This document shows positions 2,085 through 20,960 of a stretch of 50,207 nt of DNA, in pieces; position 1 is the stretch's first letter, and each line of letters opens with the position of its first letter. The notes beneath the pieces were generated by a model. It searched no databases and had not been told where the DNA came from. It saw nothing but the letters and a program-made list of their open reading frames with translations. The stretch is from the NCBI GenBank assembly GCA_025057645.1, contig JANXBJ010000018.1, positions 1-50,207 on the forward strand. The letters are read 5' to 3'. The position numbers and the translations under genes were made by a program. This DNA comes from Anaerolineales bacterium (GTDB taxonomy: Bacteria; Chloroflexota; Anaerolineae; Anaerolineales; UBA4823).

Positions 2085-2096
2085 GGAGAATTGAAA

Positions 2097-3370: not shown

Positions 3371-3379
3371 GGAGTAGGT

Positions 3380-4273: not shown

Positions 4274-5319
4274 CCATCATCCAACACCTAATCGTTGACC
4301 AATACGGCGCCTTTATTGGCAAGCACAGCGAACGTCTGGTCGTCACCAAAGGCGAGGAGAAGATCGCTGCTGCGCCACTCATTCACCTCGAATCGGTGGT
4401 CATTGGCAACCGTGGCGTCAGTATCAGCGCCGAAGCCATACGGGAATGCACCGAGCGCGGTATCCCCATTTACTTCATCAGCGCCACCGGCACACCCTAT
4501 GCCAGTTTGTATAGTGCCGGCTTGATCGGTACGGTTGCTACCCGCCGCGCCCAGCTCGAAGCCTATCACCAACGCCGTGCACTCGAACTCGTCCTTGCCT
4601 TCGGGATCGGTAAATTGAAAAATCAATCCAACCTCTTAAAATACATCGCCAAGTATCGCAAAGAAAATGACCCCGAACTTTATCAGGAACTGCACCTTTC
4701 GGCGACCGAGATTGTTGATCAGATCATAGAGCTGGAGCGCCTTCGCACGTATCCCGGATATCGGGATGGCACAGTTACGGTGAACGACTTGCGCGCCGAA
4801 CTGATGGGCATCGAAGGTCAGGCCGCCCAAATTTATTGGCGCGCTGTTGGCTGTCTATTGCCCCAAGCGCTGCAGTTCCCCGGGCGCATCGGGCGCGGCG
4901 CAAAAGACCCCGTTAATGCTTGCCTCAATTATGCCTACGGCATCTTGTACGCTCAAATCGAGCGTTGTTTGGTTCTAGCCGGGTTAGACCCCTACGCCGG
5001 TTTTCTGCATGTCGATCGCCCCGGCAAACCCAGCCTGACCCTCGACTTTATCGAAGAATTCCGCCCAGTTGTGGTTGACCGCACCATCTTGGGGATGTTC
5101 AATAAAGGCTGGATGGCTGAATTCGACGAACACTACCTGCTCACCAAAGAAACTCGCCGCACAATTGTCGAAAAGATCAACGAACGTCTCGATACCCCTG
5201 TCCCCTATGAAGGCAAGCGTCACCCTTTGCGGGCAGTCCTCCAAATGCAAGCTCGACACATAGCTACCTTCTTGCGCGGCGAACGCCTTGAATATACTCC
5301 ATTTGAGATGGCATGGTAG
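4270..5319 (+). CDS. cas1: CRISPR-associated endonuclease Cas1
   Basis: Cas1 is the integrase subunit that inserts new spacers together with Cas2. The 349-residue length is usual. The N-terminal beta domain includes QYGAFIGKHSERLVV and HLESVVIGNRGVSIS. The catalytic helical domain carries the metal-binding residues E182 (GIEGQAA), H247 (GFLHVDRPGKPSL) and the acidic pair E262-E263 in DFIEEFRPVVVDR. ATG overlaps the upstream RAMP stop (ATGA), and the end overlaps cas2. All catalytic positions are present, so the gene looks functional. Cas1 genes accompanied by cas4 are common in type I and mixed loci and less usual for III-C. Confidence 0.97.
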   Translation: MTIIQHLIVDQYGAFIGKHSERLVVTKGEEKIAAAPLIHLESVVIGNRGVSISAEAIRECTERGIPIYFISATGTPYASLYSAGLIGTVATRRAQLEAYHQRRALELVLAFGIGKLKNQSNLLKYIAKYRKENDPELYQELHLSATEIVDQIIELERLRTYPGYRDGTVTVNDLRAELMGIEGQAAQIYWRAVGCLLPQALQFPGRIGRGAKDPVNACLNYAYGILYAQIERCLVLAGLDPYAGFLHVDRPGKPSLTLDFIEEFRPVVVDRTILGMFNKGWMAEFDEHYLLTKETRRTIVEKINERLDTPVPYEGKRHPLRAVLQMQARHIATFLRGERLEYTPFEMAW

Positions 5320-5618
5320 CTACGAAGGCACCGAATACCCTGGTCATCTACGACATCCCAGATGACCGCAGGCGCACCAAAGTCGCCGAGGTGTGTTTGG
5401 ACTACGGTTTAGATCGTATTCAATTTAGCGCTTTTTTGGGATGGCTGTTACCCACTCAACAGGAGGAGCTGTTTCTCAAGCTCAAGAAGACCTTGGGTAA
5501 GCAGAAAGGCAATATTCAACTTTTCAACATCTGCCTTGCCGATTGGAGACGCAGAAAAGTTCTCGACCAAAGTGGAGCGAAAGATGGAGAAGGAGTTAGC
5601 GGAGGAGCAACGCGATGA
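5313..5618 (+). CDS. cas2: CRISPR-associated endoribonuclease Cas2
   Basis: Cas2 is a small ferredoxin-like protein that bridges Cas1 dimers during spacer acquisition. The 101 residues begin with NTLVIYDIPDDRRRTKVAEVC, which contains the conserved Asp after the first beta strand (YDIPDD), followed by GLDRIQFSAFLG. The ATG lies inside the last codons of cas1 (ATGGTAG), so translation is coupled. The C-terminal 15 residues (DQSGAKDGEGVSGGATR region) look unstructured and are encoded where cas4 already begins, so they may exist only because of the overlap. Confidence 0.95.
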   Translation: MVATKAPNTLVIYDIPDDRRRTKVAEVCLDYGLDRIQFSAFLGWLLPTQQEELFLKLKKTLGKQKGNIQLFNICLADWRRRKVLDQSGAKDGEGVSGGATR

Positions 5619-6234
5619 AGAGCGCTTAGAGTGGAAGCTATCTCTTGACCCCGACCTTCCTTTCCGGGTGACCGATCTCAAGCAGTGGTTCTACTGCAGA
5701 CGCATCGTCTATTATGCCTATTGTTTGCCAGATGTGCGTCCGATTACCTATAAGATGCTTTACGGTAGAGAAGCCGGAGAAGAGGAAGTGCGGCGCGAGA
5801 TGCGCCGCAACACCCACCGTTATGGAGGTCTAGAAGGTCGCCGCGAATTTGATGTGGAGCTTTTCTCGCTGCATCTAGGATTGCGCGGCAAGGCCGATTT
5901 GGTTATTTGGGTAGAGGAGCCACAGCCAGAAGTGCTCGTGGTTGAGTTTAAGAACTCGGTGAAGATCGGTAAACAAGTGCAGATTCAGTTGCTCGCCTAT
6001 GGCTTAATGCTCGAGGAGCAGAGTCAAATCCCGGCTCGGCGCGGCTTTGTCTATCTTATCCCCAAACGGCGCACCGAAGAGATCGTCTTCAGCAAAGGTT
6101 TACGTCAGGAGCTGCTAGCGACATTGGAAGAAATGCACACCGCCGTGCGCAGCGAACAGATGCCACCGCCCACTGAAAATCGGGCAAAGTGTTTAGCGTG
6201 TGAGTTTCGTCGCTTTTGCAACGATGTGCTTTGA
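5584..6234 (+). CDS. cas4: CRISPR-associated Cas4 (RecB-like Fe-S exonuclease)
   Basis: Cas4 trims and orients prespacers for Cas1-Cas2. One Fe-S cysteine is seen in the N-terminal motif RVTDLKQWFYCRR, and three lie at the C-terminus (CLACEFRRFC). Between them is the RecB nuclease core: D in GKADLV, E-x-K in VVEFKNS, and the Q-x3-Y motif in IQLLAYGLML. ATG 5584 is chosen because GGAG at 5574-5577 lies 6 nt upstream. An earlier TTG at 5536 would add 16 residues and deepen the overlap with cas2. With ATG 5584 the overlap is 35 nt. This is the last gene of the CRISPR operon, with a 5-bp hairpin directly after its stop. Confidence 0.95.
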   Translation: MEKELAEEQRDEERLEWKLSLDPDLPFRVTDLKQWFYCRRIVYYAYCLPDVRPITYKMLYGREAGEEEVRREMRRNTHRYGGLEGRREFDVELFSLHLGLRGKADLVIWVEEPQPEVLVVEFKNSVKIGKQVQIQLLAYGLMLEEQSQIPARRGFVYLIPKRRTEEIVFSKGLRQELLATLEEMHTAVRSEQMPPPTENRAKCLACEFRRFCNDVL

Positions 6235-6743
6235 GGAGCTTATGGCTCCCCCAATCCTTCAAGAGAGACTAAAAAGTTACTACCCATTGCGGATTGTTCC
6301 GTCTGAGTCTCAGTCGGCTGCAGGCGCTCTAAGGCATAAGCAGGATTTGTCCTCAACTTCGGCCGAGCCTTCTCTCTTCTTGTACCTTTGGGCTTCTTTT
6401 CTGAGAGTTTGTGCACGACTCTTGCCCAACCCTTATCCTCTTCGCCCTGAGGGTGCTAGGAGGCTTCCCTAGGGAGAGGGATCGTTGCGAGAGCTTCTCG
6501 ATTTAGGACTCTAGCGCTTCGATTTAGGGGTATGCCGAGGGGCACGGCCTGGCTTCGGGGACAAGTTGCAGCCGTCCGCTTGAGGTTGCTGGAGTGCCAT
6601 TTCAGTTCGGCTCTGAAGGCGCCGGGCAATCTTCCTACTTTCTGGCAAAATCTTGCAAATTTGCGCAAAATTTGGTATACTTCAACTCAAGATTTCTCAA
6701 CTCTGTTCAGCTTTGAGTTCGATCGATCTCTTGAGATGATCTG
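6235..6743. other. Intergenic stretch after cas4: no gene or CRISPR array seen
   Basis: No open frame here has a credible start or resembles a protein, and no 25-40 bp unit is repeated with spacing. Directly after the cas4 stop, GGAGC (6235-6239) and GCTCC (6245-6249) form a 5-bp hairpin with no T-run, at best a weak terminator. The right-hand 90 bp hold the regulator promoter. The middle 350 bp show nothing I can name. Confidence 0.6.
6653..6681 (+). promoter_or_regulatory. Sigma70-type promoter with overlapping palindromes, upstream of the DeoR-family gene
   Basis: TTGCAA (6653-6658) and TATACT (6676-6681) are separated by exactly 17 bp. A perfect 10-bp palindrome GCAAATTTGC (6655-6664) overlaps the -35 box. 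A wider near-palindrome, CAAATTTGC followed by GCAAAATTTG, fills the spacer with one extra A in the right arm. The position suits an operator, most simply for autorepression by the DeoR-family protein, but that link is inference. Confidence 0.7.
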
Positions 6744-7535
6744 ATGGATGGACTCCAAGTTCCCCCTTCCCTGATCCCCGCTCAGCGGCACGAGTTGCTC
6801 CTAAAGGTTCTAGCGGCTCAGCGCATCGCCTCCTGTGCTGCGCTGGCAGAAGCATTAAATGTCTCGGAGTCAACCATTCGTCGCGATCTAGAAATTTTGG
6901 AAAAACAGGGGCTGATCGAGCGCACCCGCGGAGGCGCAATTCTCAATGAGCGAATTCGTTACGAGGCGGAATATGTTCAACGCGCCCAACGCATGATCGA
7001 AGAGAAACGCCTCATCGGGCGAGCCGCTGCAGCCCTTGTAGAACCCGGCGACGTGGTGTTCGCCAACTCAGGGACGACCACCGAACAAGTTCTGCGCCAC
7101 ATTCGCGGCGTCCCTAATGTGACTGTGTTTACCAACAATACCTCAGTGATCAGCGATGGATACGATGCGGATTACGAGTTGGTCCTTCTGGGTGGGAGTT
7201 ATCTACCGCTCTCCAAAGCTGTAGTGGGGCCGCTGACTTCCTCGAACCTCAGCCAAGTGTATGCCACCAAAACCTTTATTGGTGTTGAAGGCATTAGCCT
7301 GCGCTATGGTTGTACGGTGTCTACATTCCCCGAGGCGGAGATCATTCGTATTATGATTGAACACACCCAGGGTCCGGTGATCATCGTTACAGACCATACC
7401 AAATGGGGTGCGGTCTCTAATCACCTCATCGCCCGCCTCGAACAGGTGGATAAGGTGGTCACCGACCGCGGGTTGGATGCCAATGCGCGCATGGCTTTAA
7501 TCAGTCGTTCGATCGAGGTGATCATTGCCTCTTGA
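6744..7535 (+). CDS. DeoR/GlpR-family transcriptional regulator
   Basis: This DNA-binding repressor is of the type that responds to a sugar-phosphate-like metabolite. It is 263 residues, the normal family length. The N-terminal winged HTH runs from about residue 14 to 66, with LAEALNVSESTIRRDLEILEKQGLIERTRGGAI as its core region. The DeoRC sensor domain begins near VEPGDVVFANSGTTTEQVL (about residue 94) and ends with a D-H-T-K-W motif typical of the fold. It sits at the head of the methylamine-related cluster, 48 bp before the FAD-GcvT gene, so it probably controls that operon. The effector is unknown; known DeoR members mostly sense phosphorylated sugars, which makes a betaine-linked role unusual. 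Confidence 0.9.
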   Translation: MDGLQVPPSLIPAQRHELLLKVLAAQRIASCAALAEALNVSESTIRRDLEILEKQGLIERTRGGAILNERIRYEAEYVQRAQRMIEEKRLIGRAAAALVEPGDVVFANSGTTTEQVLRHIRGVPNVTVFTNNTSVISDGYDADYELVLLGGSYLPLSKAVVGPLTSSNLSQVYATKTFIGVEGISLRYGCTVSTFPEAEIIRIMIEHTQGPVIIVTDHTKWGAVSNHLIARLEQVDKVVTDRGLDANARMALISRSIEVIIAS

Positions 7536-7583
7536 GTTGTGTTCTTGTAGCTGTGAGAATGCGCCAAAATCGGAGGTGATTTT

Positions 7584-10010
7584 GTGAAAGAACAAGCCCA
7601 GATTGTTGTAATCGGAGGGGGGATTTATGGGGTGAGCATTGCCTACCACCTCGCCAAGCGAGGCTGGACAGATGTTGTTTTGTTGGAAAAGATGGACCTC
7701 GCTAGTGGCGAGACCGGGCACGCAGCGGGTTTAGTGACCCAATTCGCCACCTCGGAGACCCTGATGCAGATCCGTAAATACAGTGTGGAGTTATACACCG
7801 AACTAGGGCTGCTCAAAGTCGTCGGAAGCCTGCGCGTAGCGTCAAGTCCGGAACAATTCAAGGAGTTGCAGCGCAGTGTCAGCCGGGCCAAGGGGATTGG
7901 AATGGAGGTGGAGATCATCTCCCCCAGCGAGGCGCTAAAACTGATGCCCGCCATGAGTGACAAAGACCTCTATGGGGCGATCTACTTGCCCGATGACGGT
8001 CATCTAGACCCTTACCTGACAACCACCCACCTCGCTGCGTTGGCAAAGGCGATGGGGGTAGAGATCAACACCCACACCCGGGTGACCGGCATTGAATTAA
8101 CTCCGAAAGGAGAAATTGGCCGTGTTCTCACCGACAAGGGTGCTATCCGGACCGAGATCGTGATCAACGCTGCCGGGCTCTGGGCACCGCGTATTGCGGC
8201 AATGGCCGGCGTCCATATTCCCACTACGCCGGTAGATCATCAGCACATTGCGCTGAAAGCCATCCCTGGCAGGGAATTTAGTTCGAACACTCCGTGCTTG
8301 CGCGATCCGGATAACCTGATTTACCTGCGCGAAGAGCAAGGAGGACTGGTCATTGGCGGCTACGAACCCAACCCGAAAGAGCGTTGGATCGATGGTGTTC
8401 CCTGGGAGCACGGAAATGCCTCTTTACCCCCTGACTTCGAGCGTTTCGAACAGTTGTTGGAGGGGGCAATTCGACGTATTCCGATTCTCGAGCAAGCCGA
8501 GATGCTTAAGTTGATTTGCCATCCTGGGGCATATTCTCCGGACTGCCAGCCGATGATCGGGCCTGTCCCGCAGGTGCGTGGTTTGTGGATGGCCTGCGGT
8601 ATGTCTCTCAATGGCTTTGGCGGGGCAGGCGGAATCGGGAAAATTCTAGCCGAATGGATTATCGATGGTGAACCTTCATTGGATGTTTATCCCTTCAAGG
8701 CAACGCGCTTTGGGAATTACTACACCAGCTACTATTACACCACCGAGCGCACGCGTGAGGGAGTGAAGTACTACTATCGCCTAAAGTTCCCGAACGATGA
8801 GAACGAATGGGCGCGGCCTCATCGTGTTTCCCCGTTACACCACCGCCTGCAGGAGTTGGGTGCGGTGTTCGGTGAAAAGTTCGGTTGGGAGCGGGTGAAC
8901 TACTTCCAACCTGGGCAAGAAAGTCGTCGTATGGGGGCTGACCAGCGCAAGTGGGGCTGGGGCAAGCCACCCTATTTTGAGCGCCTGCGTATTGAACATA
9001 CTGCGGCGAGAGAGCGGGTAGCGATCTTTGACTTTACCTCCTTTGGCAAAATCGAACTGCGCGGGCCCGGCGCACTGCCGCTTTTGCAACGCGTGGCCGA
9101 TAGCAACATCGACCGTCCGGTCGGGAGCGTCATTTACACCCAGTTCCTGAATACACGCGGCGGCGTCGAAGCAGACCTGACGGTGACTCGACTGGGAGCG
9201 GAGCACTTCTGGGTGATCACTGGCTCTGCTTTCATCGCCAATGATTTGGCTTGGTTGCGGATGCACCAACGCCCTGAGGATGGAGACCTAGAAATCCGTG
9301 ACATCACCACCGAGTGGGCTTGCATTCCCCTATGGGGGCCGAACGCGCGCGCAACCCTTTCTCAAGTGACCAACAGCGATGTTTCCAACGAAGCAATTCC
9401 TTATCTGCATGCAGGTTGGGTCGAGATTAACGGCACCAAGGTCTTGGCCCAGAGAGTGAGTTACATTGGAGAGTTAGGATGGGAACTGTATGTGCCCTGG
9501 GAGCGCGCCGCTCAGGTCTGGGATCGCCTTTGGGCTGCCGGCCAAGAATTCGGCATCGAGCCTTGTGGGTATAAAGTGGCCGATTGCCTGCGCCTCGAAA
9601 AGGGCTATCGCTATTTTACCGGTGATGTCACTCCGCGCGAGAACCCTTACGAAGCCGGCTTAGGGTTTTGTGTCGATCTGGATAAGGGAGACTTTATCGG
9701 CAAGCAGGCCCTGCTCAGAGCCAAGCAAGAAGGCATTCGGCGCAAGTTGTGCACGCTCACGTTGGAAGGCCAAGATTGGCTGCCGGTTTATGGCGGGGAA
9801 GCGATCTATCTGGATGGTAAAGTGGTGAGTCGCGTGCGCAGCGGCGGTTATGGATTCACGGTGGGCAAAAACATTGTCTATGCCTATTTGCCCCTCGAAC
9901 TGGCTAAAGTTGGAAATTCCTTCCAAGTCGAGTTGTTTGACCAACGGGTGCAGGCCGTGGTTGCGCCTACAGTGTTGGTCGATCCGAAAGGTGAGAAATT
10001 GCGAGCCTAA
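7584..10010 (+). CDS. FAD-dependent dimethylglycine/sarcosine dehydrogenase-like protein with GcvT domains
   Basis: This 808-residue protein would oxidatively demethylate an N-methylated glycine, passing the one-carbon unit to tetrahydrofolate. The N-terminal DAO domain has a GGGIYG dinucleotide motif (residues 11-16). H46 in SGETGHAAGL aligns with the covalent FAD histidine of mammalian dimethylglycine dehydrogenase. An FAO_M bridge lies near residues 370-420, then come the GcvT folate-binding domain (from about residue 475) and its C-terminal barrel. Length and layout match dimethylglycine and sarcosine dehydrogenases. The GTG start is set by GGAGG ending 7 nt upstream. With the Rieske oxygenase downstream, dimethylglycine is the likeliest substrate, though sarcosine or another methylamine is possible. 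Confidence 0.88.
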   Translation: MKEQAQIVVIGGGIYGVSIAYHLAKRGWTDVVLLEKMDLASGETGHAAGLVTQFATSETLMQIRKYSVELYTELGLLKVVGSLRVASSPEQFKELQRSVSRAKGIGMEVEIISPSEALKLMPAMSDKDLYGAIYLPDDGHLDPYLTTTHLAALAKAMGVEINTHTRVTGIELTPKGEIGRVLTDKGAIRTEIVINAAGLWAPRIAAMAGVHIPTTPVDHQHIALKAIPGREFSSNTPCLRDPDNLIYLREEQGGLVIGGYEPNPKERWIDGVPWEHGNASLPPDFERFEQLLEGAIRRIPILEQAEMLKLICHPGAYSPDCQPMIGPVPQVRGLWMACGMSLNGFGGAGGIGKILAEWIIDGEPSLDVYPFKATRFGNYYTSYYYTTERTREGVKYYYRLKFPNDENEWARPHRVSPLHHRLQELGAVFGEKFGWERVNYFQPGQESRRMGADQRKWGWGKPPYFERLRIEHTAARERVAIFDFTSFGKIELRGPGALPLLQRVADSNIDRPVGSVIYTQFLNTRGGVEADLTVTRLGAEHFWVITGSAFIANDLAWLRMHQRPEDGDLEIRDITTEWACIPLWGPNARATLSQVTNSDVSNEAIPYLHAGWVEINGTKVLAQRVSYIGELGWELYVPWERAAQVWDRLWAAGQEFGIEPCGYKVADCLRLEKGYRYFTGDVTPRENPYEAGLGFCVDLDKGDFIGKQALLRAKQEGIRRKLCTLTLEGQDWLPVYGGEAIYLDGKVVSRVRSGGYGFTVGKNIVYAYLPLELAKVGNSFQVELFDQRVQAVVAPTVLVDPKGEKLRA

Positions 10011-10058
10011 ATGAAGGTGGCAAGGGAGAAGTGTAGAGGTGCTTCAGCCATTGCAGGA

Positions 10059-10094
10059 GGTGAAGCAGCTCGCTTCTAAGGGAGCTGCTTCACC
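10059..10094 (+). terminator. Strong 12-bp hairpin without T-run between the FAD-GcvT and Rieske genes
   Basis: GGTGAAGCAGCT (10059-10070) and AGCTGCTTCACC (10083-10094) are perfect complements around a 12-nt loop. No U-tract follows, so it may be an imperfect terminator, an RNA-stabilising hairpin or a protein site. The next start codon is 137 bp further on. Confidence 0.5.
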
Positions 10095-10230
10095 AGGGCT
10101 GGTAAGTGAAAATGTAAGTGGAAACGCGCCGTTGGTGGCTTGCGCAGCAGAGGTTCTGACTTTGCTAAAGACCCCTTGCAAAAGACTTATAACCCAAAAA
10201 CATAAAATTATTAGGTAAAGGAGAGCAGCA

Positions 10231-11493
10231 ATGAGCGTCACATTTACAAGTCAGGAGGTTGCAACCCTCAAGGCATACATCCAGTCTCGCCAGGATGGTT
10301 ATGGCCTGCCGCGGCCCTTTTACCATGACGAATTGATTTACCGCGCTGAAATTGAGGTATTCTGGCGCAGGGGATGGTTGTTTGCCGGACATAGTTGTCA
10401 GATCCCCAACCCGGGTGACTACTTCCTCTACGAAGTAGATACCGACTCGATTATCCTCGTCCGGGGCGACGATGGCGCCGTGAAGGCTTTTCATAATGTT
10501 TGCCGCCATCGGGGTTCATTGGTCTGCGTCGAGCCAGAAGGACATGTCCATCGCTTCATCTGTCCCTATCACCAATGGGCTTATGGCAGAGATGGACGGT
10601 TAATTACCTATCGAGGCATGCAAGAGGGCTTGGATAAATCTCAGTTGGGATTGCACCCGGTGCATGTTCGAGACGTGGAAGGCTTGATTTTCATCAGCTT
10701 GGCCGAGACCCCACCGGATTTCGAGCCGGCCTACGAAGAAATTGCCTTCTACGCCAGACCTCAAGGGTTCAATCGCGCTAAAGTCGCCAAAATCCTTGAC
10801 TATGAGGTACCAGCCAACTGGAAGCTGGTATGGGAAAATAACCGCGAATGTTACCATTGTAACGTCAACCACCCTCAATACATCAAGGCCAACTTTGACC
10901 ATTATAACGAGGACGACACGATCGAGAGAGTAGCACTACAACTCCATGCGGTGACTACTCGTTCCCAAGAAAAGTGGGCAAAGCTCGGTTTGGCCGTGAC
11001 TCACACGAAGACGGGCATGAGCGAGTTTCCCGACCCCGACACCGGGAGATGGTACTTAGCGAACCGCACACCGCTGGTGGACGGCTATGTCAGCGAGAGC
11101 ATGGACGGCAAGCAAGTTGCTCCTTTGATGGGAGATTATCCGGATGCAGACGTGGGCACGCTGCGCATCCGCACCATGCCGAATTTCTGGAATCACTCCA
11201 GTTGCGATCACAGCGTCTCAGTGCGGCTGACACCCAATGGCATCTATTCTACTAAGGTGCGCATGTTCTGGCTGGTGGACCAGAGCGCCGAAGAGGGCAG
11301 GGATTACGATTTGGAGAAGCTCTTACCCTTCTGGCAATTGACCGCCGAGCAGGATTGGGAGATCTGTAAGAATGCCCAGCTTGGGGTCAATTCACGGGCG
11401 TATGTTCCCGGGCCGCTTTCGACCTACAAAGAATACAACGTCGATCGCTTCTTGCGGTGGTATTTGAAGGAACTGGAGCAGGGTATATCTTGA
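10231..11493 (+). CDS. Rieske non-heme iron oxygenase, GbcA-like (glycine betaine demethylating) large subunit
   Basis: This oxygenase large subunit has 420 residues. The Rieske [2Fe-2S] ligands C91, H93, C111 and H114 (CRHRG...CPYHQW) are all present. The catalytic iron site shows E206, H209 and H214 (NRECYHCNVNHPQY) and a late Asp in TAEQDWEICKN. That arrangement, and the YHCNVNHP context, matches the GbcA/stachydrine/carnitine oxygenase branch that attacks quaternary amines, converting glycine betaine to dimethylglycine plus formaldehyde. AAAGGAG gives a clear ribosome site. A hairpin precedes it and a strong terminator follows, so it may be its own transcription unit. No ferredoxin reductase partner (GbcB) is encoded in this window. 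The substrate is inferred from family and neighbours. Confidence 0.88.
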   Translation: MSVTFTSQEVATLKAYIQSRQDGYGLPRPFYHDELIYRAEIEVFWRRGWLFAGHSCQIPNPGDYFLYEVDTDSIILVRGDDGAVKAFHNVCRHRGSLVCVEPEGHVHRFICPYHQWAYGRDGRLITYRGMQEGLDKSQLGLHPVHVRDVEGLIFISLAETPPDFEPAYEEIAFYARPQGFNRAKVAKILDYEVPANWKLVWENNRECYHCNVNHPQYIKANFDHYNEDDTIERVALQLHAVTTRSQEKWAKLGLAVTHTKTGMSEFPDPDTGRWYLANRTPLVDGYVSESMDGKQVAPLMGDYPDADVGTLRIRTMPNFWNHSSCDHSVSVRLTPNGIYSTKVRMFWLVDQSAEEGRDYDLEKLLPFWQLTAEQDWEICKNAQLGVNSRAYVPGPLSTYKEYNVDRFLRWYLKELEQGIS

Positions 11494-11500
11494 CCAAACC

Positions 11501-11537
11501 AAAGCCTCCCGTGATCTCGATAATTACGGGAGGCTTT
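11501..11537 (+). terminator. Intrinsic terminator after the Rieske oxygenase gene
   Basis: AAAGCCTCCCGT (11501-11512) pairs perfectly with ACGGGAGGCTTT (11526-11537) around a 13-nt loop. The 3' arm ends in T-rich sequence (CTTTGTCAAATTTTG). It begins 8 bp after the Rieske stop codon and lies upstream of the start chosen for the next gene, which argues against longer N-terminal versions of that protein. Confidence 0.85.
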
Positions 11538-11564
11538 GTCAAATTTTGTCCTCGGAGTTGGACT

Positions 11565-13016
11565 GTGTTTACTTATTCTGAGTTACTAACTGCGGATCAG
11601 GTCGAGCGCATCCACCAGGCTTCGCTCCACATTCTTGCCGAGGTAGGCTTGTTGGTACGCAATGAGAGGGCGCGCCAAATCTTTGCTCGGCATGGTTGTT
11701 GGGTAGACGAAGAAACTCACCTGGTTCGCTTCCCGATCGGGGTAGTGGAAGAATTCCGCCAAATGTTTCCATCAAAGTTTATCTTTCGCGGGCGGGATGA
11801 GAGGTTTGATAAGGTTCTGCCCGATGACAGTCCGGTGATCGTCACTGCTTCCTCTGCGCCGAATATCATTGATCCTGTCACCGGTCAAGAACGACGTGCC
11901 ACCTCGGAGGACATTGCCCGTATTGCCTACTTAGTCAATGAATTGCCCGGCTACGATGTCTTTTCGGTTTCGACCCTTGCCGAGGATGCCCCGCCGGGGT
12001 ATTTCACTCTAGCGCGTTTGTATCCGGCGTTGAAGAACTGTCTCAAGCCGGTGCGCAGCACCGCTACCGATTTGGAAGATGCCAGAAGGGTGCTTCAGCT
12101 TGGGGAACTCATTGCCGGGGATGAGAAGACTTATGCGCAACGGCCGTTTATCACCCATCACTTTTGCCCGGTGGTCTCTCCTTTGACGATGGATGTCGCC
12201 TCCACCGAACTAACCATTTTCTTTGCCGAAAAGGGGCTGCCGGTGTACCCGAGCATTGTTCCCAACGGCGGCTTAACTGCACCGATGACGATGAGTGGCA
12301 CGTTGGTGCAGGGGAATGCCGAGTTCTTGGCTGCTGCGGTTCTGATGCAAATGGTCAGACCTCAAACTCCGCTGATCTATTCCACTCTGCCGACTATCGC
12401 CGATATGCGCACCGGTGCCTATGCCTCGGGTGGGGTGGAGTGTGGGATGTTGCACATGGCTTTTGCGCAGATGGCCCGCTTCTACGGCGTACCCTGTGGC
12501 GGGTACATTGGGCTGAGCAACTCCAAGGTGAATGACGCTCAGGCTGGCTATGAGACGGGTATTTCGTGCACAGCTGCCCTGCTGGGTGGCGCCCATATGC
12601 TCAACATGGGCGGGTTGCTGGACGCACTGAAAGCGTTTGACTACGCCAAAGCCGTGATCGATGACGAGATCGCCCAGATGCTCAAACGCATCCGCCGAGG
12701 GATGGAGTTCAATGAAGAGAACTTGGCTTTAGATGTGATCGCCGAAGTCAAACCCGGCGGCAATTTTATGACTCATAAACACACTGTGAAGTGGATGCGC
12801 AAAGTAGCTTTGATGCCTCGCATTGCGGACCGCGAGCCGCGCGAAGTGTGGGAAAAGCGCGGTGCGCTGGACGCCTTTCAGCGAGCGAAGCAACGGGCAG
12901 CCGAAGTCTTGTCCAAACCTACCCCTGTCTCATTTCCGCCGGAAATCGAGGCTCGTATTCGCTCAGTCTTTCCCGAAATGGTGCACGGTGAGGTGATTCC
13001 TGTTGAGGGTTGGTAG
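11565..13016 (+). CDS. MttB-family (non-pyrrolysine) corrinoid-dependent methyltransferase
   Basis: This 483-residue member of the trimethylamine methyltransferase superfamily transfers a methyl group from a quaternary or tertiary amine to a corrinoid protein. Non-pyrrolysine members such as MtgB use glycine betaine. Recognisable stretches are HQASLHILAEVGLLV near the N-terminus, GLTAPMTMSGTLVQGNAE, and GCGYIG-type glycine-rich sequence (PCGGYIGLSNSKVNDAQAGYE) in the barrel. There is no in-frame TAG, so pyrrolysine is absent. GTG 11565 is chosen because GGAG (11554-11557) lies 7 nt upstream and because earlier in-frame codons run back through the terminator. No MtgC-like corrinoid protein is visible nearby. 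Betaine is inferred from the adjacent Rieske and FAD-GcvT genes. Confidence 0.85.
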   Translation: MFTYSELLTADQVERIHQASLHILAEVGLLVRNERARQIFARHGCWVDEETHLVRFPIGVVEEFRQMFPSKFIFRGRDERFDKVLPDDSPVIVTASSAPNIIDPVTGQERRATSEDIARIAYLVNELPGYDVFSVSTLAEDAPPGYFTLARLYPALKNCLKPVRSTATDLEDARRVLQLGELIAGDEKTYAQRPFITHHFCPVVSPLTMDVASTELTIFFAEKGLPVYPSIVPNGGLTAPMTMSGTLVQGNAEFLAAAVLMQMVRPQTPLIYSTLPTIADMRTGAYASGGVECGMLHMAFAQMARFYGVPCGGYIGLSNSKVNDAQAGYETGISCTAALLGGAHMLNMGGLLDALKAFDYAKAVIDDEIAQMLKRIRRGMEFNEENLALDVIAEVKPGGNFMTHKHTVKWMRKVALMPRIADREPREVWEKRGALDAFQRAKQRAAEVLSKPTPVSFPPEIEARIRSVFPEMVHGEVIPVEGW

Positions 13017-13084
13017 GAAGTTTCGGCGAGTTCAGGGCTGTTTCTATGGAAATTTGCTTGTATACTTAATCTCGGGAGAGTGCT

Positions 13085-14023
13085 ATGAAGTTTTTCTTCG
13101 CCACTGACGTGCATGGTTCGGAAATTTGTTGGAAGAAATTTATCAGCGGGGGGAAGTTCTACGGAGTGGATACGCTTATCCTTGGTGGCGATATGACCGG
13201 CAAAGCGATTGTGCCGATCATTGCTCAAGGGAATAATAAGTGGAAAGTGACCCTCCTAGAGCAGGAAATGATTTTAGAGGGGAAAGAAGCAGTGGACAAG
13301 ATGGTGGTCACGATTATGAACCGTGGCTATTACCCTCACGTCACCGACCCCGATGAAGTTAAGGAGATCGCAGAGACTCCTGGCCGGTCGGATGAGTTGT
13401 TTCATGAGTACGTGCTCAAGACCATTCAGCGCTGGATGGAATATGCGGATGAAAAATTAGCCGGTACAGGGATACGCTGCTATGTCTGTCCGGGGAACGA
13501 TGATGTGTTTGAGATTGACGAGGTGATTGCGCAGTCGAAGACTGTTCAGTTGGCAGAGGGTAGGGTGATCTGGCTAGACGATCACCACGAGATGATCAGC
13601 ACTGGTTGGTCCAATCCAACCCCCTGGGAGACGCATCGGGAGGAGGAGGAAGAAAAACTACTCCAACGCATCGAGGCAATGGTCGCTCAAGTGAGCGATG
13701 TGAGCAATGCAATTTTCAACCTCCATGCCCCGCCTTATGGTAGCGGTTTGGACGAAGCGCCGGAGTTGACAAAGGACATGCGCTTAGCCTACGCCGGACG
13801 TTCGATGGTGCCCGTAGGCAGTAAGGCGGTTCTACGGGTAATCGAAAAGTATCAGCCCTTGCTGAGCCTTCACGGGCACATTCACGAGGGTAAGGGAACC
13901 CGAAAATATCGCCGCACTTTATGTATCAATGCCGGCAGTCAATATGAGCAGGGTATCCTACAAGGGGTTGTGGTGGAATTGGAGCCGAAAAAAATTCGCA
14001 GCTATGTGCTAACCACCGGCTAG
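13085..14023 (+). CDS. Calcineurin-like metallophosphoesterase (Icc/COG2129-like)
   Basis: This is a two-metal phosphoesterase of 312 residues. The metal-ligand blocks appear in order: D-x-H (TDVHGS, residues 8-13), GGDMTG (about 38-43), GNDD (about 137-140), HAPP (about 217) and GHIHE (about 263). This layout is typical of predicted phosphoesterases from archaea and Chloroflexi, longer than the minimal YfcE fold, and with a charged insertion (REEEEEKLLQR). It lies 68 bp after the MttB-family gene on the same strand. Its substrate cannot be deduced; a role in the methylamine cluster is only suggested by position. Confidence 0.85.
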   Translation: MKFFFATDVHGSEICWKKFISGGKFYGVDTLILGGDMTGKAIVPIIAQGNNKWKVTLLEQEMILEGKEAVDKMVVTIMNRGYYPHVTDPDEVKEIAETPGRSDELFHEYVLKTIQRWMEYADEKLAGTGIRCYVCPGNDDVFEIDEVIAQSKTVQLAEGRVIWLDDHHEMISTGWSNPTPWETHREEEEEKLLQRIEAMVAQVSDVSNAIFNLHAPPYGSGLDEAPELTKDMRLAYAGRSMVPVGSKAVLRVIEKYQPLLSLHGHIHEGKGTRKYRRTLCINAGSQYEQGILQGVVVELEPKKIRSYVLTTG

Positions 14024-14081
14024 TGGGAGGAATCTATTGGCGGAGAGAATTCGGAGGAGAGTAAAGAAAAGGAGGTGACGG

Positions 14082-14185
14082 TTGAGAAAGCTTGGATTAA
14101 TTCAGGAGCAATGAGGCAATTTTCCTTTGGCGTTTTGCCGAGAGGCGTTTCCAAACCCCACCAGAAAGGAGATCGAAATGAGTGA
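14082..14185 (+). other. Two short overlapping reading frames ahead of the APC permease (possible coupled leader)
   Basis: GGAGG (14071-14075) sits 6 nt before a TTG that opens a 10-codon frame ending at TGA 14112-14114. That stop overlaps an ATG at 14111, which opens a 24-codon frame ending at TGA 14183-14185. The second frame overlaps the permease ATG at 14178 by 8 nt. The chain of overlaps would couple ribosome flow to the permease. Neither peptide resembles a known protein, and chance overlap cannot be excluded. Confidence 0.3.
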
Positions 14186-16058
14186 AGTTACTCTGTTTGT
14201 GCGTAGAGCGAGCGGTCTGGTTCGAGCGTGGTCTACCTTTGATGCTTTCATCTATGCCACGTTCTCTATTAACCTGATCACCCTCGGACTGTACATCTTT
14301 TCGTACTGTTACTATTTTGAGGGGAATTTGGCAACGGCAGTTGTTATCGGCGGTGTCTTTACGATTTTTGAAGTCATTGTTTATGCGAGTTTGATCTCGG
14401 CGATGCCGCGGGCTGGTGGAGATTACGTTTGGCAAAGCCGCATCTTGGGGAGAGGCATCGGTTTCCTCTTAGCGGTGACCGGATGGTGGTTCATCCTTTG
14501 GCTTTGGGTGCCCCTCTATGGGCAGATGTTGGTTTACACGACCATCACTCCTGCTCTAGCAATCTTAGGGGCAAGAGAGGCCGCCCTGTGGTTCACCAAT
14601 ACTTCAAGCGGGTTGCTAGTTGGGTGTTTGGCTGTCTGTTTGATTGTGTTTATCTACATCGCCGTAGGGATGAAGTGGTATGCCCGAGTACAGAAGTTCT
14701 GCTTCTTTGGCGGGATGCTAGGGTTGCTTGTGGTGTTCCTATTGCTCTTGTTTGGTAATCAGCAGACCTTCATCGCCAATCTGAACACCTTTGCGGCTAG
14801 ATACTTTGGAGCAAGCGGCCAAGACCTCTATCAAGCAACCCTGGCGGCCGGGGAGGCGGCAGGTACGGTTGCAGCTCCTCTGAGCAATTTCGCTGTTGGC
14901 GCCAGCATGGCTTTGATTCCTATGATCGTTTTCTTCAACCTTTGGCCGAACTGGGGTTCAACCCTCTATGGCGAAGTGCGCGGGGCCAATGACTACAAGC
15001 GCAATTTCTGGGGTATGGCTTCGGCGGTCATTGTGACTGCAATTTTAGCCCTCATTTTCTTTGCCCTGATCCACAAATCGATTGGCTGGGAGTTTTATCA
15101 CAAGGCCAACGGAGCTTTTTGGAACTACACTTGGGGCTACACCCAGGAAGCGCCACCCTTGCCCTTCTGGCCTTACCCGGTTTTGTTTGCAGCTTTCATG
15201 AGCCAAAGCCCTGTGGTGCATTTTGTGGTTGTGCTCTTGATGAGCCTCTGGTGGTTTGGTTGGTCGGGAACGGTCTTTCTAAGTTCGACGCGGGTGATCT
15301 TCGCCGCTGCCTTTGACCGCATGTTGCCGGAATGGGTTTCTGCGGTTGAGCCGCGCACCCGCACCCCGATCAACGCCTTGCTGCTGATGGTGATCCCTTC
15401 GGTGGTTATTTCTATCCTCTACTCTTTCAATATCTGGAATTTCCGGAGTTTAGCGCTGGATGCTACCTTGGTTATTGCAGTGACATTTCTCGGCACAACG
15501 GTTGCTGCCATCGTATTGCCCTGGCGACAGAAGGAGATTTTTGAGGGATCGCCCATTGCTCAATATAAGACGCCGCCCGCCCTAGGATGGTTGGTGCTGA
15601 TCCTGTACGCTATTGCGGCAGCGTATCTGATTATTACTTCTTTCAGTTACATGCAGAGTGTGCTAGGCGGATTGGCGGCGATCGGCGCCGAGGCGATTAC
15701 GTGGTTTAGTGTCGTTATCGTTTCCGTGCTGACCATTGTGAATGCCGTTCTACTCTTGTGGATTCTGTACTATGTCGGCTCGCGAGCGTTCAAAGGGGAG
15801 TTGTTGCCGGTGGTCACTACCTCCGGTTTGGTGTTCCTGGCTTTCCTGGACTGGCTGCTGGTCGAATGGTTCTGGGATCCGCATGTGCCGCCCTTTGACT
15901 TCCCCCTCTATGCCATCGGTTGGTCGAATGCAAGTTCAATGCTCTTTATGCTCTTCAATTACCTGCTGGCTGGCGCAATTTATGTAGGCTTCAATCTCTA
16001 CCGGCGGCGACAGGGAATCGATGTAGATAAGGTTTACAAAGAGATCCCTGTGGAGTAA
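14178..16058 (+). CDS. APC-superfamily amino acid/amine permease
   Basis: This 626-residue polytopic membrane protein, with roughly 12-14 hydrophobic segments, is an amino acid-polyamine-organocation transporter. The motif ISAMPRAGGDYVWQSRILG after the second or third membrane segment is the family signature. ATG 14178 is set by AAAGGAG about 8 nt upstream; an earlier in-frame ATG at 14127 lacks one. Two mini reading frames overlap the start. A strong T-tailed terminator follows directly. Its place between the betaine-type enzymes and the ABC transporter suggests uptake of a betaine, methylated amine or amino acid, but the substrate cannot be read from the sequence. Confidence 0.88.
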   Translation: MSEVTLFVRRASGLVRAWSTFDAFIYATFSINLITLGLYIFSYCYYFEGNLATAVVIGGVFTIFEVIVYASLISAMPRAGGDYVWQSRILGRGIGFLLAVTGWWFILWLWVPLYGQMLVYTTITPALAILGAREAALWFTNTSSGLLVGCLAVCLIVFIYIAVGMKWYARVQKFCFFGGMLGLLVVFLLLLFGNQQTFIANLNTFAARYFGASGQDLYQATLAAGEAAGTVAAPLSNFAVGASMALIPMIVFFNLWPNWGSTLYGEVRGANDYKRNFWGMASAVIVTAILALIFFALIHKSIGWEFYHKANGAFWNYTWGYTQEAPPLPFWPYPVLFAAFMSQSPVVHFVVVLLMSLWWFGWSGTVFLSSTRVIFAAAFDRMLPEWVSAVEPRTRTPINALLLMVIPSVVISILYSFNIWNFRSLALDATLVIAVTFLGTTVAAIVLPWRQKEIFEGSPIAQYKTPPALGWLVLILYAIAAAYLIITSFSYMQSVLGGLAAIGAEAITWFSVVIVSVLTIVNAVLLLWILYYVGSRAFKGELLPVVTTSGLVFLAFLDWLLVEWFWDPHVPPFDFPLYAIGWSNASSMLFMLFNYLLAGAIYVGFNLYRRRQGIDVDKVYKEIPVE

Positions 16059-16066
16059 AGCGAGAG

Positions 16067-16104
16067 AGAAGCAGGTCGAAACAAATTTCGACCTGCTTCT
16101 TTTT
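16067..16104 (+). terminator. Intrinsic terminator after the APC permease
   Basis: A 15-bp perfect stem (AGAAGCAGGTCGAAA, 16067-16081, with TTTCGACCTGCTTCT, 16086-16100) closes over a CAAA loop and is followed by a T-run. The core GCAGGTCGA/TCGACCTGC recurs in the terminator at 20578-20614. Confidence 0.93.
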
Positions 16105-16627
16105 GTGGGGCTTGTTAAGGGATGTTTACGTCTTGTTTACCTCTTCATTAATCGGACCTGAGAGAATATGTGTAAAATGGTGGGGCTGTTCGAAATCCTT
16201 TCTGCAGGGACAAAAGTTCTCGGAAAGTGCAATGTGCTGTTTTGCCGAGAGTCATGTCTGAGGACAGCACGCTACTGTAAGAGCTGCACCTTTCTGTCAA
16301 AAGGAGCTATTTGGTGACGTGTTTATGGGAAGCGGCACTAACCTAAAGCTGTCGGCCAAAGATATCCTGATTGACACTGGGGGTGGAATATGGTAAAATC
16401 CCTTAAAAGTTTAACAAACATTAATAATGAGAAGCGCCATTAAAGTCTATGGTAATAAACATAAACAAATGTGTGCTCCTTACGTTTCACTTTTAGGAGG
16501 ATCCCGCCTACTTTGATGCCAGAAAGGAGGTGGTGCAAGGCCTTATCGGTGAAGTTTGCACTTGAGCAGTTCTCTAAAAAATGCGGAAGTTTGTCCCGCA
16601 AATCCTATCTTAGCCAAGGAGGAAGAG
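16105..16627 (+). promoter_or_regulatory. Long 5' region of the ABC transporter operon: hairpins and promoter
   Basis: No protein-coding frame is credible here. Nested inverted repeats lie around 16218-16272, namely CTCGG...CCGAG and GTGCTGT...ACAGCAC, upstream of the main promoter. These could be an operator cluster or a separately transcribed RNA. I compared the region by eye with glycine, cobalamin and guanidine riboswitch cores and found no match. The leader downstream of the promoter is about 220 nt and contains two stray GGAGG sequences (near 16496 and 16526) without a suitably spaced start. Confidence 0.45.
16371..16399 (+). promoter_or_regulatory. Sigma70-type promoter for the ABC transporter operon
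   Basis: TTGACA (16371-16376, consensus -35) and TAAAAT (16394-16399) are separated by 17 bp. A transcript would start near 16406 and read a leader of about 220 nt before the binding-protein ATG. Confidence 0.8.
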
Positions 16628-17194
16628 ATGAAGCGCAAGATCTCGCGACGAGAATTTTTGAAGCTGACCGGTCTCGCCGGAGGTGCTGCTGTTTTAGCTT
16701 CCTGCGGGCCACGCGCTACGCCGACCCCTGAGTTTACTTTGCCAGATCTGACGAGTGGTGAGTCAATCCCGTTGGACCAGTTGATCAAAGCTGTTGAAAT
16801 TGAGGGGAAAAACCTGACCACTATTGCATTGCCCCACGACTGGGCAAACTACGGGGAAATGCTGGACACCTTTAAGAAGAAGTACGGCGTGAAGATCAAT
16901 GAGCTGAACCCGGATGCTGGCTCGGCGGAGGAGCTAGAAGCGATCCGCGCCAACAAAGACAGTAAAGGCCCCCAAGCACCCGATGTGATTGATATTGGTA
17001 TCGCGTACACTAAAATCGCCAAGGAAGAGGGCTTGTTGGCAAAGTACAAAGTTGCCACCTGGGATACTATCCCGCTAAAAGACCCGGAGGGTTATTGGTG
17101 GGGTGAATATTACGGCGTGCTGGTCTTTGAAGTGATCAAAGACCCCAAGATTCCAGTGCCGCAGGATTGGCCTGATCTGCTCAAGCCGGAGTAA
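16628..17194 (+). pseudogene. ABC transporter substrate-binding lipoprotein, N-terminal part (interrupted by in-frame TAA)
   Basis: This is the N-terminal 188 residues of an extracellular binding protein of the spermidine/putrescine-iron type. The signal is a Tat-lipoprotein one: SRREFLKLTGLAGG with a twin arginine, then a lipobox LASC. ATG 16628 follows AAGGAGGAAG. The frame stops at TAA 17192-17194 within LLKPE-stop-KGKVAMAGD. Homologues usually read LKPEYKGK here, so a TAC or TAT tyrosine codon has most simply become TAA, and the frame continues unbroken on the other side. The whole gene would be 385 codons plus stop, a normal length. Either the gene is newly inactivated or the base is a consensus error; TAA is not a known recoding codon for selenocysteine or pyrrolysine. 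Confidence 0.85.
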
Positions 17195-19492: not shown

Positions 19493-19508
19493 AGTTTGCG
19501 AGGATCCT

Positions 19509-20576: not shown

Positions 20577-20577
20577 C

Positions 20578-20614
20578 AAAAGACCGCAGGTCGAACTCGA
20601 CCTGCGGTCTTTTT
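20578..20614. terminator. Bidirectional terminator between the ABC operon and the minus-strand exported proteins
   Basis: AAAAGACCGCAGGTCGA (20578-20594) and its perfect complement (20597-20613) make a near-continuous 17-bp stem with A-run and T-run flanks, so it can serve both strands. Its GCAGGTCGA core is identical to that of the terminator at 16067-16104. Confidence 0.92.
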
Positions 20615-20643
20615 GGTTTTGGGACGCCAGAAGTGTGCAAAGA

Positions 20644-20949: not shown

Positions 20950-20960
20950 CTCTTCCTCCG

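Follow-up and report, generated by a model that had tools for sequence, protein, structure and literature searches.

Adjacent Rieske oxygenase and MttB-superfamily methyltransferase genes in an Anaerolineales locus: a candidate two-branched module for quaternary amine demethylation

Within a stretch of 50,207 nucleotides from an Anaerolineales bacterium (contig JANXBJ010000018.1; the whole stretch is called the window here), genes for a dimethylglycine-dehydrogenase-like (DMGDH) flavoprotein, a Rieske oxygenase, and an MttB-superfamily methyltransferase follow one another on the forward strand between positions 7584 and 13016. Open reading frames and Pfam/NCBIfam matches bore out, at unchanged coordinates, the trio that a sequence-only reading had recognized, namely a GbcA-like Rieske oxygenase and an MttB-family enzyme beside a dimethylglycine-dehydrogenase-like protein. 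The evidence inclines modestly toward a catabolic module in which either of two demethylases could take the first step on a small quaternary (trimethylammonium) amine and a single enzyme, common to both branches, the second. If this is right, the same C-N bond could be broken at one locus by two unrelated kinds of chemistry, turnover of quaternary amines at oxic-anoxic boundaries becomes directly testable, and a large MttB subfamily, for which no function was found assigned in the literature searched, gains one. The features concerned are as follows:

6744-7535, forward strand: DeoR-family regulator (HTH_DeoR and DeoRC sensor domain), separated by 48 nt from the DMGDH gene that follows
7584-10010, forward strand: DMGDH-like flavoprotein with C-terminal folate (GcvT) domains, 808 aa (Pfam)
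10059-10094, forward strand: hairpin in the DMGDH-Rieske gap, 13-bp stem plus two inner pairs (folding, joint prediction)
10231-11493, forward strand: Rieske non-haem iron oxygenase alpha subunit, GbcA/Stc2-like, 420 aa (Pfam, NCBIfam, motifs)
11500-11538, forward strand: strong hairpin between the Rieske and MttB genes (stem of 16 bp, -27 kcal/mol), no immediate U tract
11565-13016, forward strand: MttB-superfamily methyltransferase, non-pyrrolysine, with Leu at the Pyl334 position (PF06253, residue comparison, start evidence)
13085-14023, forward strand: calcineurin-like metallophosphoesterase (Metallophos match weak, 26.3 bits; cut-off 21.5)
14127-16058, forward strand: APC-family (amino acid/polyamine/organocation) permease, start possibly at 14178 (PF13520, 59 bits)
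16068-16099, forward strand: hairpin followed by TTTTTG, 3' of the permease gene (by eye and low-energy fold)
16371-16399, forward strand: sigma-70-like promoter match ahead of the importer genes, TTGACA-17-TAAAAT, agreeing with the consensus at 11 of 12 letters
16556-20576, forward strand: ABC importer gene set (Pfam/NCBIfam), comprising a TAT-signal substrate-binding protein (interrupted), permeases at 17775-18713 and 18701-19492, and an ATPase at 19446-20576

The flavoprotein has the domain order of dimethylglycine dehydrogenase, DAO, FAO_M, GCV_T, and GCV_T_C (246, 35, 245, and 70 bits, respectively), and its best solved relatives are dimethylglycine dehydrogenases, matched over the whole length with 516 bits. 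Its HAAG motif (residues 46-49) aligns with the HAAG of DMGDH, which we take to be the covalent FAD site. The Rieske protein matches Ring_hydroxyl_A (102 bits) and Rieske (55 bits), and the Rieske and mononuclear iron motifs CRHRG (residue 91), CPYHQW (111), NNRECYHC (203), NHP (213), and QDWEI (374), which presumably provide the iron ligands, are all present and aligned with those of Stc2. PDB entry 3vca, which we take to be the stachydrine demethylase Stc2, is annotated as a ring-hydroxylating dioxygenase; a second, nearly identical chain is annotated as a demethylase. The best NCBIfam model for the Rieske protein is GbcA (NF058607), at 388.8 bits and below the curated cut-off of 670; homologues from S. 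meliloti and Paracoccus, each adjoining an NAD(P)-dependent oxidoreductase gene, likewise remain below it (514 and 524 bits). In the Rieske tree, the Chloroflexota form their own branch beside homologues from Aminobacter, Shinella, and Sinorhizobium. Comparison of the DMGDH, Rieske, MttB, metallophosphoesterase, and permease genes of the window with those of the sibling loci L051-L054, some of whose contigs lack some of the genes, gave 0.037-0.116 nonsynonymous against 0.67-0.84 synonymous changes per site, the latter near saturation; since the nonsynonymous values lie far below the synonymous in every pair compared, these genes are under strong purifying selection.

The methyltransferase matches PF06253 over its full length, covering positions 29-489 of the 500 in the profile with 310 bits (cut-off 25). 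As called, its reading frame starts at 11457, inside the Rieske gene; an in-frame GTG at 11565 is preferred, with a GGAG read by eye just upstream, and this GTG is conserved in L051, L052, and L053. A score of 384 bits against the pyrrolysine trimethylamine model TIGR02369 falls below the cut-off of 525, and a pyrrolysine MttB (trimethylamine methyltransferase) was ruled out by the open frame with no amber codon and by the leucine at position 334, which all 80 clade rows compared share (the window counted, L053 excluded). The placement with MtgB, suggested earlier as a check, is not firm: in a quick tree the clade groups with MtgB and SmMttB, but support is weak (SH-aLRT 79), the stem is long (2.43 changes per column, with a long-branch warning), and MtgB, although the closest solved relative (247 bits), shares 34% identity. 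At the positions equivalent to Gly110 and Tyr364, active-site residues of MttB that are carried to MtgB by equivalence only, MtgB has Tyr and His, whereas the window clade has Ser and Asn (80 of 80 rows). Owing to the weak placement and these two differences, betaine is one candidate substrate only.

For comparison, 80 MttB-clade loci were fetched; counting the window, 58 loci were readable for Rieske presence. In 8 of the 80 loci, homologues of the Rieske and MttB genes are neighbors on one strand and in the same order, directly adjacent in three and separated by a PfkB gene in five; given this recurrence, the adjacency is not due to chance. The full trio is present in six of these eight; the contigs of the remaining two, L052 and L062, stop short of where DMGDH would be expected. 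The window MttB belongs to a widespread Anaerolineae locus of MttB with DMGDH, PfkB kinase, and often a choline-kinase-like gene, phosphate transporter, and ABC importer. The Rieske gene is its less common member, present in 9 of the 58 readable loci when the window is counted; this wider locus is arguably more interesting than the Rieske/MttB pair. DMGDH homologues occur in 59 of the 80 loci (in L055 and L109 distant and on the other strand), importer gene homologues in 45-48, homologues of the DeoR regulator (136.9 bits to DeoRC and 63.2 to HTH_DeoR in the window) in 42, and those of the metallophosphoesterase and the APC-family permease, near or distant, in 33 and 32, respectively. Roseobacter plasmids provide parallels, with Rieske and MttB genes adjacent in Leisingera (L139) and MttB and DMGDH genes adjacent in Roseovarius (L140).

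The window's cluster contains no corrinoid, RamA, or Rieske reductase gene. Corrinoid proteins, whose complete absence from the genome had been named as evidence against the sequence-only reading, were found elsewhere in it (three, stand-alone), as were two RamA; no GbcB-like Rieske reductase, for which a search had also been proposed, was detected by FAD_binding_6-type and Fer2 searches, the sole FAD_binding_6-type (PF00970) match in the genome being one of 33.5 bits within a hydrogenase-like gene set, beside 11 Fer2 matches that were identified in part. One corrinoid protein exceeds the TIGR02370 cut-off of 215.3 (246.8 bits) and two fall just under it (214.1 and 210.4). The highest-scoring one is encoded immediately after a RamA gene and, at 51%, resembles the corrinoid protein of L076 more than the other two do. 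Together with an AcsE-like methyltransferase (200.9 bits, under the NCBIfam cut-off of 370), a complete corrinoid demethylation set of corrinoid protein, RamA, and methyl-THF methyltransferase is present, and the corrinoid proteins, RamA, CODH/ACS, and a CtaD-like oxidase gene make both demethylation routes possible in this genome. RamA is common in the class anyway (218 of 296 sampled genomes) and was found in 50 of 51 genomes with the MttB clade; the genomes compared are related and partly the same. Same-clade MttB genes lie near a corrinoid protein and/or RamA in L076, L107, L121, and L128, in L076 inside the same DeoR-DMGDH-PfkB-MttB cluster. A corrinoid protein and a Rieske gene never occurred together in any of the 80 loci, which could mean that they serve different systems.

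As proposed, with oxygen the Rieske oxygenase would hydroxylate one N-methyl group, which would leave as formaldehyde; without oxygen, or where reduced corrinoid is available, the MttB-family enzyme would transfer a methyl group to a corrinoid protein whose gene lies at another place in the genome and which RamA would keep active, and the methyl group would pass onward to tetrahydrofolate and the Wood-Ljungdahl pathway. By either route, the dimethylamine product would go to the DMGDH-like flavoprotein, which would oxidize further methyl groups onto tetrahydrofolate. Uptake would be by the ABC importer and the APC permease, with the locus under the control of the DeoR regulator; the MttB/DMGDH pair would represent the common Anaerolineae core and the Rieske gene an added oxygen-using branch. 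We infer that the Rieske and MttB enzymes share one substrate, that the corrinoid protein of the genome is the working partner of the window MttB, that the Rieske gene arrived later in the locus, and that the choice of branch depends on oxygen. The candidate substrates are a carboxylate betaine, glycine betaine first, and (phospho)choline: the GbcA/Stc2-like Rieske protein favors the "betaine pathway" proposed earlier, but the weak placement of MttB with MtgB, its Asn in place of His, and the Rieske score under the GbcA cut-off do not, and (phospho)choline is a serious rival.

According to that rival, which we regard as tentative, the substrate is choline, phosphocholine, or another amino-alcohol phosphate and not glycine betaine; MttB would work like MthB of Eubacterium limosum, the Rieske enzyme would demethylate the same headgroup, the DMGDH-like enzyme would continue on the dimethylethanolamine product, and the phosphate would be handled by the metallophosphoesterase and the phosphate-transport genes of sibling loci. 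Choline-kinase-like genes occur in 37 of the 80 loci (20 close, 63-100%, query included; 17 distant, 30-34%), PHO4 and DUF47 genes in 41 each, and PfkB genes in 62, and the plasmid DMGDH homologues of L142 and L145 stand in DeoR-DMGDH-choline kinase sets. The Asn/Ser pair, in place of the His/Tyr of MtgB, also points this way, as do the importer's nearest models of 2-aminoethylphosphonate type, which, like those of polyamine type, stay under their cut-offs except for the general potA subfamily model for the ATPase; the MthB/MthK system gives a precedent (PMC12155760). However, the window's cluster has neither a choline-kinase-like gene nor a phosphate transporter, the only choline-kinase-like gene of the genome is a distant paralogue (35%) at another locus, and the Rieske branch is GbcA/Stc2-like, that is, of enzymes acting on carboxylate betaines. 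The best NCBIfam model for the choline-kinase-like protein is GntI_guanitoxin (205 bits, under the cut-off of 357), so that choline as its substrate is unproven, and the homocysteine methyltransferase of L076 best matches a betaine--homocysteine model (283 bits against a cut-off of 338).

A second alternative, also doubtful in our estimation, is that methyl groups from the corrinoid route enter methionine synthesis or C1 metabolism even when oxygen is present, the two routes running together with no switching. Corrinoid glycine betaine demethylation by MtgBCD works in aerobic Ruegeria (PMC12478193), RamA and MttB are separated in L075 and L076 by a gene for homocysteine S-methyltransferase, and a heme-copper oxidase is encoded in 45 of the 50 clade genomes chosen; against this, the CODH/ACS and RamA of the window's genome form an anaerobic-style set. 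Heme-copper oxidase presence does not track the Rieske gene, being found in 6 of 8 genomes of Rieske-bearing loci versus 39 of 42 chosen genomes whose loci have MttB and DMGDH but lack the Rieske gene. An oxygen-dependent and a corrinoid-type demethylase do stand side by side, as the sequence-only reading had it, but its "opposite oxygen regimes" are too simple in view of these oxidase-bearing genomes and of Ruegeria.

Two predicted RNA structures flank the Rieske gene. In the DMGDH-Rieske gap, the stretch 10030-10110 has a folding z of -3.5 (1 of 200 shuffles equally good), and a 13-bp helix is predicted jointly for the window, L051, and L053, with both-sided changes at 4 of 13 pairs; the two innermost pairs each have a non-pairing or gapped cell, and the L052 contig stops short of this hairpin. 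The Rieske-MttB gap hairpin, which from its form would be terminator- or processing-site-like, has z values of -8.0 in the window, -7.5 in L051, and -6.2 in L053, and folds in L052 too; joint prediction for the window and L051-L053 gave a helix of 15 pairs, of which one is compensatory and another fails in one row. Conserved hairpins on either side of the Rieske gene in the window's closest group fit its separate expression, and this pairing may be a hint, the only one, of an expression switch. Farther downstream, the hairpin at 16068-16099 is probably the end of a transcript, although absent from the output of a pattern scan; sigma-70-like sites at the stringency of the match at 16371-16399 number 6 in the region against a shuffle average of 10.3.

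The flanking hairpins also bear on a third and unlikely explanation, that the Rieske and MttB enzymes act on different substrates while sharing importers and regulation, the Rieske gene being an independent insertion for a different betaine. Its scarcity among the readable loci, with at least five changes of state on the MttB tree, agrees with this, as does the pairing of DMGDH with MttB but no Rieske gene in 49 readable clade loci; moreover, the nearest non-Chloroflexota Rieske genes among the tree rows (L137, L143, and L144) adjoin a DMGDH homologue in all three cases, an adjacency that counts for the two-branched module too, and no MttB homologue was found in those stretches. Yet the Rieske gene lies between DMGDH and MttB in all seven Rieske-bearing loci that reach DMGDH (window included), stands just before MttB or PfkB in L052 and L062, and adjoins an MttB-family gene in the Leisingera locus as well. 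Returning to the two-branched module on a shared substrate, a bolder version, for which our confidence is low, would make the Anaerolineae clade a new MttB subfamily with an Asn/Ser signature, acting on a quaternary amine to which no MttB enzyme of these bacteria has so far been assigned (phosphocholine or a related compound), and with a Rieske oxygen branch for the same substrate that in a few lineages was inserted, separately expressed, and bracketed by hairpins; if true, oxygen and corrinoid chemistry would be interchangeable at the same C-N bond within a single locus.

Among known systems, dimethylglycine dehydrogenase (PDB 4pab) and dimethylglycine oxidase (1pj5) share the full-length domain order of the window flavoprotein (the 516-bit match is to 4pab), but homologues of the window type adjoin choline-kinase-like as well as Rieske or MttB genes. 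GbcA and Stc2 (3vca) are Rieske alpha subunits similar to the window protein over nearly the full length and with the same motifs; the window protein differs in its score (389 against 670), its Chloroflexota branch, and the lack of a partner reductase gene nearby. MtgB of Desulfitobacterium hafniense (2qne/9yce) is, like the window MttB, a non-pyrrolysine member of the superfamily with Leu at the Pyl position, and its best solved match, from which the window protein is set apart by Asn for His and Ser for Tyr, by the long, weakly supported stem, and by the lack, next to it in the window, of genes for a corrinoid protein or a methyl-THF methyltransferase. The MthB/MthK phosphocholine system also employs an MttB-superfamily enzyme and recalls the sibling loci with a choline-kinase-like gene, although the window's cluster has no such kinase; the available part of that report names Firmicutes and delta-proteobacteria, not Chloroflexota (PMC12155760). 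Genes possibly for glycine betaine demethylation have already been attributed to Chloroflexi, among others (PMC8547467), and no locus with both chemistries was found in a literature search of titles and abstract openings, with subscription papers mostly outside it. In the available part of the Ruegeria pomeroyi report, which has GbcAB demethylating glycine betaine, bacteria with GbcAB but lacking MtgBCDE are set in contrast and no locus with both enzymes is described; its MtgBCD nonetheless resembles the present case as a corrinoid demethylase in oxygen-respiring bacteria, with later demethylation genes nearby in many genomes (PMC12478193).

At 7584-13016 of the window (contig C9 in a 63-contig genome assembly of 3.1 Mb), consecutive plus-strand genes encode a DMGDH-like flavoprotein, then a Rieske oxygenase and then a protein of the MttB superfamily. 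A DeoR regulator is encoded upstream of this trio, and a metallophosphoesterase, an APC permease and an ABC importer downstream. The sequence-only reading, which had placed the three genes side by side, was upheld in this respect; the arrangement is present and conserved, and would be sensible as a two-route quaternary-amine module. Among the best 80 of 122 relatives of the MttB protein, the nearest were those of the sibling loci L051-L053 (89% identity), and comparison with L051-L054, wherever a sibling holds the gene, revealed strong purifying selection on the DMGDH, Rieske, MttB, metallophosphoesterase and permease genes. A broken MttB gene in L053 was considered and rejected; its stop at residue 483 was taken as the natural end, after which the alignment overruns by one residue. 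The gene for the binding protein of the importer (16556-17785) is interrupted in the window by an in-frame TAA at 17192-17194, and is a single open frame in L053 (394, stop to stop) and in the comparison locus L058 (387 aa), the interruption being either a broken gene or an assembly error. Directly upstream of the DeoR gene, positions 261-6234 hold type III CRISPR-Cas-like genes for a Cas10-palm-like protein, two RAMP proteins, Cas1, Cas2 and Cas4.

Relatives of the MttB protein were collected by scanning named genomes with a three-protein MttB alignment, and the best 80 of 122 loci were retained, many on short contigs; L107 was titled Thermoanaerobacterales and L129 Spirochaetales, and the other 78, by their titles, were taken as Chloroflexota. 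Homologues of PfkB (62), DMGDH (59), the ABC ATPase (47), PHO4 (41), DUF47 (41), the choline-kinase-like protein (37), the metallophosphoesterase (33), corrinoid protein (9), Rieske protein (8) and RamA (5) were counted in these best 80 loci, in none of which did a corrinoid protein and the Rieske gene occur together. A large conserved Anaerolineae locus (L088:61-17304), with similar sets in many of the 80, carries genes for a CBS protein and an unknown protein divergent from those for DeoR, metallophosphoesterase, APC permease, choline-kinase-like protein, DMGDH, PfkB, MttB, DUF47, PHO4 and ABC importer. Counting the window and every locus with a readable DMGDH-MttB stretch or a visible Rieske gene, nine loci had the Rieske gene and 49 did not (the other 23 of 81 rows could not be read and were left out), and because of these counts, the MttB/DMGDH pair is regarded as the shared core, with the Rieske gene as the rarer component of the locus. 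Rieske presence changed state at least five times on the MttB tree, a count made without a shuffle control and in which gain and loss are not distinguishable. Across the class, the Rieske protein had matches at E 1e-40 in 11 of 396 genomes, and in three of the 396 (the window's own, G192 and G233) a match reached at least 69% identity. In a tree of 17 hand-picked Rieske rows, the nine Chloroflexota proteins of the cluster formed one group (bootstrap/SH-aLRT 85/93) adjoining, at 84/88, those of L137, L143 and L144, the nearest outside Chloroflexota; in all three of these loci the Rieske gene adjoins a DMGDH homologue, with a PDR/VanB-type reductase gene lying between the two in L137.

Residue comparison revealed that the window MttB has Leu at the Pyl334 position and is without pyrrolysine. 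Its best solved relative is MtgB, at 34% identity. A tree and residue counts were made with the window and 79 of the best 80 loci (of 122), L053 being left out; in this quick tree, which carries a long-branch warning, the resulting clade of 80 rows is set apart by a stem of 2.43 changes per column, and its grouping with MtgB and a Sinorhizobium (S.) meliloti protein has a support of only 79. Tyr364 and Gly110 are active-site residues of MttB, according to an excerpt of PMC9842639. The column equivalent to Tyr364 holds His in MtgB and Asn in all 80 clade rows, and that equivalent to Gly110 holds Tyr in MtgB and Ser in all 80. Identification of the window protein as MtgB itself was rejected on the low identity, the weak grouping and these two differing positions. 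The genome has five PF06253 genes, and the four further MttB-family genes, on contigs C18 (L033), C6 (L034), C7 (L035) and C33 (L036), encode paralogues with 27-32% identity to the window's.

A corrinoid route has candidate partners elsewhere in this genome: six B12-binding_2 matches, three of them in stand-alone corrinoid proteins, two RamA-type genes, and genes for the CODH/ACS catalytic, alpha/beta, gamma and delta subunits with an AcsE-like methyltransferase, none of these genes lying within the window's cluster. The corrinoid protein gene on contig C11 is directly 3' of a RamA gene (TIGR02370 score 246.8, cut-off 215.3), and of the three proteins, its product is the most similar (51%) to the corrinoid protein encoded in the L076 cluster. 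There, the order is DeoR-DMGDH-PfkB-corrinoid-RamA-homocysteine methyltransferase-MttB; in L128, MttB-DMGDH is followed by a corrinoid protein, a pterin-type methyltransferase homologue and RamA, while L107 has MttB-corrinoid-methyltransferase and L121 has MttB-RamA. These arrangements are the best evidence that the MttB clade would work with corrinoid. RamA was detected in 50 of 51 genomes with the clade versus 218 of 296 in the class sample (Fisher p 1.7e-5), an enrichment that counts as weak evidence, since these genomes share ancestry, several of them (including the window's own) belong to both samples, and readable clusters were the basis on which the 50 loci were hand-chosen. A homocysteine S-methyltransferase/BHMT-like gene lies between RamA and MttB at L075:3393-4265 and L076:8885-9778, which suggests that methionine synthesis could draw on the corrinoid-bound methyl group there. 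On contig C6 (L038:8302-10329), a non-pyrrolysine MtmB homologue (455 aa, PF05369 348 bits, without an in-frame stop) adjoins a stand-alone corrinoid protein, and an Ardenticatenales genome (L073:3378-12865) carries, closely spaced on a single strand, a pair of MtmB-like genes (about 31% identical to the C6 homologue), one for a corrinoid protein and two of the MttB family.

On the oxygen side, the Rieske protein of the window retains its motifs, and among the genome's five Rieske matches it alone has an oxygenase-size frame (424 codons; the others have 147-206). Of the three partners named in the sequence-only reading, corrinoid protein and RamA are encoded in the genome, but a GbcB-like reductase was not found among its PF00970 and Fer2 matches. 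The sole FAD_binding_6 (PF00970) match in this genome, the one genome scanned for that domain, at 33.5 bits, sits by eye among NiFe hydrogenase-like genes, and the 11 Fer2 matches, of which only some were identified, include both RamA genes. The genome holds one heme-copper oxidase gene, CtaD-like, at 592 bits (cut-off 671). Such an oxidase was present in 45 of 50 clade genomes, chosen from the best 80 loci (of 122) for readable clusters, so the clade in this selection occurs mostly in organisms able to respire oxygen. The Rieske gene as a marker of the oxygen-respiring members was rejected, with oxidase in 6 of 8 genomes with it at the locus and 39 of 42 without (Fisher p 0.18). Given this distribution, and since an excerpt of PMC12478193 reports corrinoid betaine demethylation in aerobes, the earlier proposal of opposite oxygen regimes is possible and is not implied.

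Two hairpins flank the Rieske gene:

10059-10094, 13-bp hairpin in the DMGDH-Rieske gap, predicted jointly for the window, L051 and L053
11500-11538, 16-bp hairpin filling the Rieske-MttB gap (-27 kcal/mol, z -8.0 in the window)

The Rieske-MttB hairpin is kept in all four loci of the window's group (window, L051, L052, L053), where one of its pairs is compensatory and another fails in a single row, and its arms have no other mismatch-free match in the window. The DMGDH-Rieske hairpin shows changes on both sides at four pairs, and its innermost cells are imperfect. In these two gaps the lowest local hairpin energies were -35.1 and -28.5 kcal/mol, compared with -9.9 to -14.6 in other in-cluster gaps and -28.9 in the long stretch that follows the permease gene. 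In the remaining five Rieske-bearing loci, a PfkB gene separates Rieske from MttB, and the Rieske-MttB hairpin is absent; L068 has its own strong hairpin in the DMGDH-Rieske gap. Ending, attenuating or processing the transcript are possible roles of the hairpins; termination is only a possibility because a clean U tract is missing. They fit a Rieske gene that would be expressed separately in the window's group, and are the sole hint of a switch that the sequence offers; switching with oxygen is put forward as a hypothesis. Seven Rfam matches over 6300-21000 (E up to 1), all below gathering scores, were taken as chance, and as promoter (6 sites, shuffle mean 10.3) and terminator (15, 16.9) scans gave fewer sites than the shuffle means, only single sites with other evidence were considered.

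As to substrate, betaine is plausible from the Rieske scores (GbcA 389 bits, Stc2 290 bits) and the relationship of MttB with MtgB, but both proteins fall short of GbcA and MtgB membership; we hypothesize it for the window locus. Choline-kinase-like, PfkB and phosphate-transport genes in sibling loci, along with DeoR-DMGDH-choline kinase sets carried by plasmids of Ruegeria and Alisedimentitalea, point to choline or phosphocholine; an MttB-superfamily route for these is known from Eubacterium limosum (excerpt of PMC12155760). However, none of these kinases is in the window's own cluster, and the best NCBIfam model of the choline-kinase-like protein is not choline kinase.

Cold-seep genes possibly for glycine betaine demethylation were assigned to Chloroflexi, Clostridium and Alphaproteobacteria, according to an excerpt of PMC8547467, and the titles and abstract openings returned by literature searches described no locus with both enzymes. 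Parallels are found on plasmids outside Chloroflexota: that of Leisingera encodes an ABC importer, an OYE-family flavoprotein, a Rieske protein and MttB consecutively, and on that of Roseovarius, MttB adjoins a DMGDH homologue.
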